Positions 30,302 through 31,594 of a DNA stretch of 64,000 bases are shown piece by piece. The notes beneath the pieces are model-generated. The model did no database searches and was not told the DNA's origin. It worked only from the letters and a program-made list of their open reading frames with translations. The number at the start of each line of letters is the position of its first letter. The first letter of the stretch is position 1. Source of the DNA: Thermogladius calderae 1633 (GTDB lineage Archaea > Thermoproteota > Thermoprotei_A > Sulfolobales > Desulfurococcaceae); NCBI RefSeq assembly GCF_000264495.1, contig NC_017954.1, positions 1,054,001 through 1,118,000 on the forward strand, given 5' to 3'. The translations under genes and the position numbers were made by a program.

Positions 30302-30319
30302 TTATAAGGGTCTTTAAAC
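30302..30319 (+). promoter_or_regulatory. Promoter of the structured RNA gene
   Basis: Two overlapping candidates, TTATAAG (30302-30308) and TTTAAAC (30313-30319). The first predicts transcription from about 30331, six bases before the closing stem of the RNA; the second from about 30342, inside it. Confidence 0.5.
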
Positions 30320-30330
30320 AAAAAGGGAAT

Positions 30331-30512
30331 TGCAGAGCGGGGCTCTACCCAGGGCGGTTTGAGCAAAGCCCGCTAAGTTTCAGCGGGCTCGTATGGCTAT
30401 TTCAGTACACAGTATACGAGCAGACCACCAAACGAGTGACCTAAGGATTCCAGTGGTCACGTTTAGAGTACAGGGCTTTTTTAGAGAGCTTTAGTAGGGT
30501 GGAGCCCCGCGA
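30331..30512 (+). ncRNA. Candidate structured non-coding RNA, multi-helix junction
   Basis: No open frame fits this gap. A 14-bp closing helix pairs 30337-30350 with 30497-30510 (one U-G pair). Inside it are three further helices: 30367-30374 with 30382-30389 (8 bp, 7-base loop), 30388-30394 with 30414-30420 (7 bp, sharing its edge with the previous helix), and 30430-30433/30436-30441 with 30555-type partner 30455-30460/30461-30464 (10 bp with a GA bulge). A late GGGCTTT (30473-30479) could pair with AAAGCCC (30365-30371) as an alternative. The flanking genes end on either side, so this is a free-standing RNA gene. It lacks tRNA features, and is too short and P3-less for a normal archaeal RNase P RNA, and does not look like SRP RNA. 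Confidence 0.6.
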
Positions 30513-30519
30513 TGAAGCA

Positions 30520-31332
30520 CTACCTCTTATCCCTCTCCAAAAGCCACTTGTCCGTCTCTTCGAGCGCGTACTCGACGGCCTCCCTCACGGGCAGCCCCTC
30601 TACGACTCCAACGAATAGCCTGGCCAGGAAGTAGTCCCCGGACCCCGTCTTGTCCCTCACCCTTACTCGCTCCTGCCCGACTACCTCGAAGCCCCCTCTG
30701 TGGACGACTACAGGCGGCTTGAACCCCTCCGTGACGACTACGTAGCCGTCCCGTAGTAGTTTACGCAATTTCCCGAGAGCCTCGTCTTTACTGCTTGACC
30801 CGGTCAACGCGAGGAGCTCAGCTGTGTCCATGTGTAGCACGTCGAAAACACCTATGACCTCGCGCACGTCCGCGCACCCCCTCAAAGCGAGAGGGCCCAA
30901 CCTCCTCTCCCTCACAAAGCCCTGTACGTCACCTGCCAGGACGATCGACTTTGTCCTCACACTCTTCAACAGGCTCGGCGTGACCTCCCCCAGCACTGGG
31001 TTGACCACCGTGTAGCACGAGCCCGAGTGCTCGTCTACGCCACTGAGTTGCGGGGACATCTCCGCGACTTCCATTACTCGTTCTGTGTCGAGGTAGGTTA
31101 TCCTGAACACCATAGAGGTAGCCGAGTAAGAGGGGTTGGCTTTGAACTCCATTAGCCCGTTGACTAGGAAGAGCCAGTGTGGGCCCACGGAGTAGACCTC
31201 TGGTTTAACGCCCTCGTCGAGGAGAGAAAGCGCGGTGTAGTAGACTCCGCCGCCGGTCCTAACCGCGGCCCCACGGCTCGTCACGATGATGTCAACCGTG
31301 GGGTTCCCGTAGACGCAGACCCTCCCACGCAA
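30520..31332 (-). CDS. PfkB-family sugar/nucleoside kinase
   Basis: 270 residues, a short member of the ribokinase superfamily. The N-terminal VCVYGNPTVDIIV strand and GGG turn bind substrate; the C-terminal RDKTGSGDYF holds the anion hole and the catalytic base Asp233. The usual second N-terminal motif (GG-N-A) is altered to GGGVYYTALSL. Substrate cannot be told from sequence; in hyperthermophilic archaea relatives phosphorylate nucleosides, ribose 1-phosphate or sugars. It is 10 bases downstream of the zinc-finger gene. Confidence 0.85.
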   Translation of the reverse strand: MRGRVCVYGNPTVDIIVTSRGAAVRTGGGVYYTALSLLDEGVKPEVYSVGPHWLFLVNGLMEFKANPSYSATSMVFRITYLDTERVMEVAEMSPQLSGVDEHSGSCYTVVNPVLGEVTPSLLKSVRTKSIVLAGDVQGFVRERRLGPLALRGCADVREVIGVFDVLHMDTAELLALTGSSSKDEALGKLRKLLRDGYVVVTEGFKPPVVVHRGGFEVVGQERVRVRDKTGSGDYFLARLFVGVVEGLPVREAVEYALEETDKWLLERDKR

Positions 31333-31342
31333 CTCCCGCCCC

Positions 31343-31594
31343 CTAGCGAGACTTAGCCCTGAAAGCGCTCCTCGCGTGGTAGTCCCGTATGTGGTATATC
31401 AGGTCTTCGACGGTGTAGAAGAAGACCGGCTCTTGCTTCCCCTTCCCGGCGTTTCCGCCGAGGCAGGTCTCCCGGGCGTTAACGCATACCGGGCAGGTGA
31501 TCATCCCGGTTATCCTGTCGCGACACGTATAGAAGACGATCCCATGCGACTCTACCCTGAACTTCTCCCAGCGCGGCTCCCATGTGTAGCTCAT
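31343..31594 (-). CDS. Small zinc-binding protein
   Basis: 83 residues. Cysteines in CRDRITGMITCPVC and RETC, followed by HIRDYH, give a mixed Cys/His set that could hold one or two zinc ions, ending in a C2H2-like helix (DLIYHIRDYH). Similar small proteins are found in crenarchaea without known function. ATG has GGTGG upstream; a TATA box (GTTTAAAC, about 31638-31645) predicts a leader of about 20 bases. It appears co-transcribed with the PfkB gene. Confidence 0.7.
   Translation of the reverse strand: MSYTWEPRWEKFRVESHGIVFYTCRDRITGMITCPVCVNARETCLGGNAGKGKQEPVFFYTVEDLIYHIRDYHARSAFRAKSR

Follow-up and report, generated by a model that had tools for sequence, protein, structure and literature searches.

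A conserved, predicted noncoding RNA gene of the Desulfurococcaceae with a kink-turn motif at the end of its closing helix

Background

What is encoded between the thioredoxin-like gene and the kinase gene that lie head-on in the window, the whole 64-kb stretch of DNA that was analysed from the single contig (1,356,318 bp) of the Thermogladius genome? A preliminary description placed in this gap a structured RNA gene, unassigned and with a promoter of its own, and gave it a closing helix, three inner helices and a long-range pairing between AAAGCCC and GGGCTTT. The locus thus raises the questions whether an RNA gene of this kind is kept in related archaea, which parts of the proposed structure are kept with it, whether it belongs to a known class of RNA, and what such an RNA might do.

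Results

Locus and distribution

Gene order at the locus runs from serS to a 123-aa thioredoxin-like ORF, the RNA and a convergent PfkB-family kinase, and the gap is indeed bounded by the ends of two genes (Table 1). The kinase stop codon abuts the 3' end of the RNA, and in some homologues the kinase reading frame runs into the RNA 3' arm. The upstream ORF has no Pfam or NCBIfam match at 1e-3 and is called thioredoxin-like from our reading of its sequence; the protein is conserved throughout the family and beyond. On the far side of the kinase, 31343-31594 on the minus strand encodes an 83-aa Cys/His-rich protein (CPVC...C, H...YH) without a family match, and a similar ORF comes after the kinase in the homologous loci examined.

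Table 1. Features of the RNA locus and its neighbours (positions in the window)
Feature	Position	Strand	Remarks
Thioredoxin-like protein, 123 aa	29914..30285	+	ORF; conserved upstream neighbour; outside the RNA
TATA box TTATAAG	30302..30308	+	about 28 bp before the conserved start
Predicted mature noncoding RNA, about 190 nt	30330..30519	+	conserved ends, covariation, promoter spacing; ends predicted
Kt-n, non-bulged kink-turn strand	30330..30336	+	UUGC for the outer NC stem, then A, then GA for the sheared pairs
P1 closing helix, 5' strand (kink-turn C stem)	30337..30350	+	all 14 pairs changed on both sides across 33 distinct sequences
Fast-evolving inner domain	30351..30496	+	alignments, fold z-scores; 120-300 nt in homologues
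CAGUAUACGAG motif	30410..30420	+	local form of the recurrent CAGYRNUU / UACGAG inner-domain motifs
P1 closing helix, 3' strand	30497..30510	+	covariation
Kt-b, bulged kink-turn strand	30511..30519	+	3-nt loop GAU, GA, A, GCA (outer NC stem); RNA 3' end
PfkB-family kinase, convergent, downstream	30520..31332	-	PF00294, E 3e-10

Homologues were gathered in three ways: by blastn, by a pattern combining the promoter with the RNA 5' end, and by synteny, in which loci with the thioredoxin-like gene were scanned for a kink-turn plus stem. At least 37 genomes of archaea from hot springs and vents contain the RNA gene: 33 of the 40 in its own family, the Desulfurococcaceae, three in a second family and one (G058) in a third family of the same order. 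Named records with homologues include Thermogladius, Staphylothermus, Thermosphaera and other Desulfurococcaceae, and a genome of the same genus (G002) is 92% identical over the element. The 36 genomes of the first two families form the main set used below, to which G058 is additional. At the loci identified by synteny the kink-turn match lies just downstream of the thioredoxin-like gene and is preceded by a TATA box, features that the few weaker stem matches elsewhere in these loci do not have.

A covariance model of the RNA gave full-length matches in the first two families, one per genome, with E values from 1e-35 to 4e-6. It is not sensitive at greater distance, because it missed two members of the second family known by synteny and matched the member of the third family, which was likewise recognised by synteny, only weakly (E 0.005). 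With this model neither the other families of the order nor the rest of the phylum yielded a convincing member, the single match outside the order (E 0.008) being unconvincing. Short sub-threshold matches in G044 and G020 were rejected as members, as they are promoter-like matches instead. A further weak match (E 0.001), L168 (G024:C1:312118-312231, minus strand) of a related genome, has a TATA box and behind it a GC-rich long-stem sequence that contains GATGAGGC; it has no Rfam match and is possibly another noncoding RNA.

The neighbours of the RNA are not constant. In G012, where the thioredoxin-like gene is found at another place and other neighbours have moved, the RNA remains beside the kinase, and in G058 it follows the thioredoxin-like gene, the place of the kinase being taken by an ORF whose translation reads as IMP-dehydrogenase-like. 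Since the neighbours swap separately in these two genomes, we regard the RNA as an independent gene.

Promoter and RNA ends

The TATA box in front of the closing helix had been noted as standing at the right distance for initiation at the outer stem, and comparison bears this out. All aligned upstream regions of the 36 homologues contain a TATA-like box about 28 bp before the UUGC/AUGC start, with a tolerance of 1-2 bp, and in many of the homologues a conserved A/T-rich stretch follows the box (TTTAAACAAA, 30313-30323). The pattern of promoter plus 5' end matched in 9 of the 40 genomes of the family as compared to none for the reversed control pattern. The RNA 3' end reads AUGARGC in 34 of the 36 sequences and GAUGAGGU in the remaining two (G018 and G047), and in many of the 36 a T-run comes directly after the GAUGARGC end. 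Promoter and conservation together suggest that the gene is transcribed.

Closing helix and terminal kink-turn

The 14-bp closing helix, P1, proved to be exactly as originally drawn (GCGGGGCTCTACCC/GGGTGGAGCCCCGC), and its length ranges from 12 to 21 bp across the homologues. The folding energy of the RNA corresponds to z = -6.1, with none of 200 dinucleotide shuffles as good. The search for compensatory changes in related genomes, proposed as a check in the preliminary description, shows these to be extensive in and around P1. Across the P1 and kink-turn arms of 34 sequences, 93.1% of cells are in standard pairs, 16 of 18 kink-turn and stem pairs show compensatory changes on both sides, and 140 cells are doubly changed as compared to 34.5 +/- 5.2 in shuffles; the signal is lost when the partner strand is slid by 1-3 columns. 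Because many of the homologues had been collected by a scan for pairing, covariation was recounted on eight distinct members whose detection had relied on sequence and on no pairing criterion, and these too contain more double-change cells than shuffles do (17 versus 6.4 +/- 1.6).

The outer end of P1 carries a consensus kink-turn (5' strand UUGC-A-GA, 3' strand GAU-GA-A-GCA), which the preliminary description had missed and which first came to notice through blastn matches of the RNA 5' end in other genera. In the window it is made up of an outer GC stem, A.A at 3b/3n, tandem sheared G.A pairs and a three-base loop, with P1 as the C stem. The combination of C stem, 3-nt loop, tandem sheared G.A/A.G and NC stem is present in 36 of 36 sequences. 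Among these the G, C and GA of Kt-n and the AUGA of Kt-b are invariant and the flanking G-C pairs nearly so. The outer stem covaries between U-A and G-C, and position 3b/3n is occupied by C-G, U-A or A.A; the distant member G058 has AA in Kt-n instead of GA. When the whole window was scanned for a kink-turn plus long stem, the RNA locus scored highest (46), followed by a runner-up at 37.

Inner domain

The part of the RNA enclosed by P1 is poorly conserved and falls into two classes, a short one (genera g1, g6, g7 and g10) and a long one, most of whose members have a second helix, P2 (CCACCACCGCC/GGCGGTGGTGG), along with a GC-rich hairpin. Interiors of the long class are mostly more stable than shuffles (z about -2 to -10), and those of most short homologues are no better than shuffles (z about -3 to +2). 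Here the preliminary description fares differently than at the closing helix, the gap and the TATA box, since its three inner helices and its long-range pairing are not conserved. In the 92% identical G002 seven inner pairs differ, of which six are broken and none is compensated, and in G001 and G003 26 of the 48 inner pairs can form, so that the helices break even among members of the genus; AAAGCCC, one strand of the long-range pair, is absent from the latter two genomes.

What does recur in the inner domain is short motifs at positions that differ among the homologues. CAG[TC][AG]NTT occurs in 25 copies in 27 representatives versus 1.9 in shuffles and TACGAG in 9 copies versus 1.0, counts that are inflated by the relatedness of the sequences. 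No exact CAGYRNUU is present in 11 of the 27 representatives, the window sequence included. The motifs do not stand out as more unpaired, with 0.46 versus 0.44 for the remainder of the inner domain. A second, internal kink-turn as a property of all members was considered and rejected, as the scan for it stayed at chance level and one was seen by eye in genus g10 only. The members from this genus (L033, L034 and L074) have a second hairpin inside the RNA with kink-turn or k-loop bases (GGTGCAGACCC..GGATGAAGCAC), and changes in its stem are compensated in the three species.

Comparison with known RNA classes

None of 4227 Rfam families matched above its curated threshold in the whole window or in 13 homologous loci, and in the gap itself even a permissive scan gave matches at chance level only. 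The covariance-model scan that the preliminary description had called for thus yields no known family. It had also judged the RNA to be neither RNase P nor SRP RNA, and rightly so: the models for archaeal RNase P RNA (RF00373, RF02357) and SRP RNA (RF01857) do not match at the locus, and the genome has ordinary copies of both elsewhere, at G000:C1:242539 (157 bits) and G000:C1:197220, respectively. Its suggestion of a P4-like strand, in contrast, turned out to be wrong, as the P4-like strands are not conserved. With archaeal RNase P RNA the family shares a structured length of 200-340 nt and a probable kink-turn, but it differs in having no P4.

Also to be compared are the archaeal box C/D sRNAs, which have in common with the RNA a terminal kink-turn built of GAUGA and NGA strands, a promoter of their own and, probably, L7Ae as ligand. 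However, the order of the strands is inverted here, the RNA beginning with the D-like strand and ending with the C-like one. In place of short guides it has a 12-21-bp duplex and a 120-300-nt domain, it is several times longer, and most members lack a C'/D' pair. With the bulged strand at the 3' end, the non-bulged strand at the 5' end and the P1 duplex between them, assignment to the box C/D sRNAs was rejected. An ACA box, which an H/ACA guide RNA would carry, was not found at the 3' end of any of the 36 sequences. Contiguous complementarity of at least 9 bp to 16S or 23S rRNA neither recurs between genomes nor clearly exceeds that of shuffles, which speaks against a guide that would pair with rRNA over such a stretch.

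In Y RNAs and CsrB-type RNAs a terminal stem with an open domain, or repeated short motifs, binds protein. The likeness is one of analogy only, as there is no sequence relation and no Ro60 or CsrA partner has been identified, and the RNA described here differs in being archaeal and in carrying a terminal kink-turn. Six L7Ae-bound sRNAs of unknown function from the related archaeon Sulfolobus acidocaldarius (PMC5539422) are L7Ae ligands of the kink-turn type, as the RNA described here may be; no convincing member of the present family was found in the order's other families searched. The open-access literature that was searched contained no account of this RNA. The family is uncatalogued in the libraries searched and lies outside every RNA class tested.

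Discussion

Comparison among genomes supports the existence of a structured RNA gene that has its own promoter and is unassigned to any family, through compensatory changes on the one hand and the absence of an Rfam match on the other, and as far as can be judged from sequence a noncoding RNA gene at 30330-30519 is close to certain. That stem and kink-turn are chance or DNA-level features from which no RNA is made is hardly conceivable, as the compensatory changes are specific to RNA pairing, G-U included, a non-Watson-Crick kink-turn is kept in 36 genomes and the TATA box stands at a fixed distance. An RNA that is kept in most sequenced members of the family, has its own promoter, lacks an Rfam entry and falls into none of the archaeal RNA classes tested suggests an RNA-protein machine that has gone unrecognised.

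But what would such an RNA do? L7Ae is known to bind kink-turns in rRNA, RNase P, SRP, C/D and other RNAs of Sulfolobus (PMC5539422). We suggest that the stand-alone gene gives rise to a stable RNA of 170-340 nt whose two ends pair into P1 with the kink-turn at the very end; that L7Ae, to judge from the motif consensus, would bind this kink-turn, fold the ends back and shield them from the heat at which a hyperthermophile grows; and that P1 would present the fast-evolving inner domain, whose repeated CAGYRNUU and UACGAG motifs may bind a partner protein, so that the RNA would act as a ribonucleoprotein scaffold or as a protein-sequestering RNA. Of this model, the sequences themselves show the conservation of the locus, the covariation of stem and kink-turn, the position of the promoter and the excess of motifs; transcription, binding of L7Ae, the partner and the function of the inner domain are the putative part. 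The model is weakest at the scaffold or sponge, because most of the inner sequence is poorly conserved. Confidence in the mechanism is accordingly low, and we put the model forward tentatively, as the best explanation at hand. Somewhat more doubtful is its extension to a new class of archaeal RNP RNA, in which an inverted terminal kink-turn would lock the ends and a CAGYRNUU inner domain would sequester or assemble protein; such a class would be near-universal in the Desulfurococcaceae and present in two further families.

Two other functions are less likely than the scaffold or sponge, though worth weighing. The RNA might be a guide, H/ACA-like or of a permuted box C/D type, or a U3-like chaperone of pre-rRNA, whose inner loop would pair with rRNA or tRNA. 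Its kink-turn strands do look like degenerate forms of box C (GAUGA) and box D (CUGA in G027 and G049), and the members from genus g10 have a second internal kink-turn or k-loop hairpin; yet the inverted order of the strands, the duplex where a guide would be, the 3' end without an ACA box and the lack of contiguous rRNA complementarity of 9 bp or more that recurs between genomes or clearly exceeds shuffles make this reading unlikely. Equally improbable is a role in cis, as a 3'-overlapping antisense RNA or terminator element for the convergent kinase. In the loci examined the 3' ends of RNA and kinase either adjoin or overlap, and in G012 the two have stayed together, but the RNA of G058 does without the kinase, and neither antisense action nor termination would need a kink-turn or a whole inner domain.

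A trans-acting part in a catalytic or housekeeping machine, such as that of a second RNase P- or MRP-like RNA, is much less probable still. In the window sequence GAGCAAAGCCC and GGGCTTT resemble P4 strands, and RNase P RNA is itself among the kink-turn RNAs; the absence of AAAGCCC from two genomes of the genus and the presence of a normal RNase P RNA in a genome whose RNA locus has no RNase P model match weigh against it. The RNA offers a defined and easily tested candidate L7Ae particle, with ends that are predicted nearly to the base, culturable hosts in Staphylothermus, Desulfurococcus and Thermosphaera, and a kink-turn that makes a pull-down straightforward.

As a separate observation on the host genome, its 23S rRNA gene (G000:C1:424041-427723) exceeds that of most related genera by about 600 bp, which suggests that the gene contains introns.
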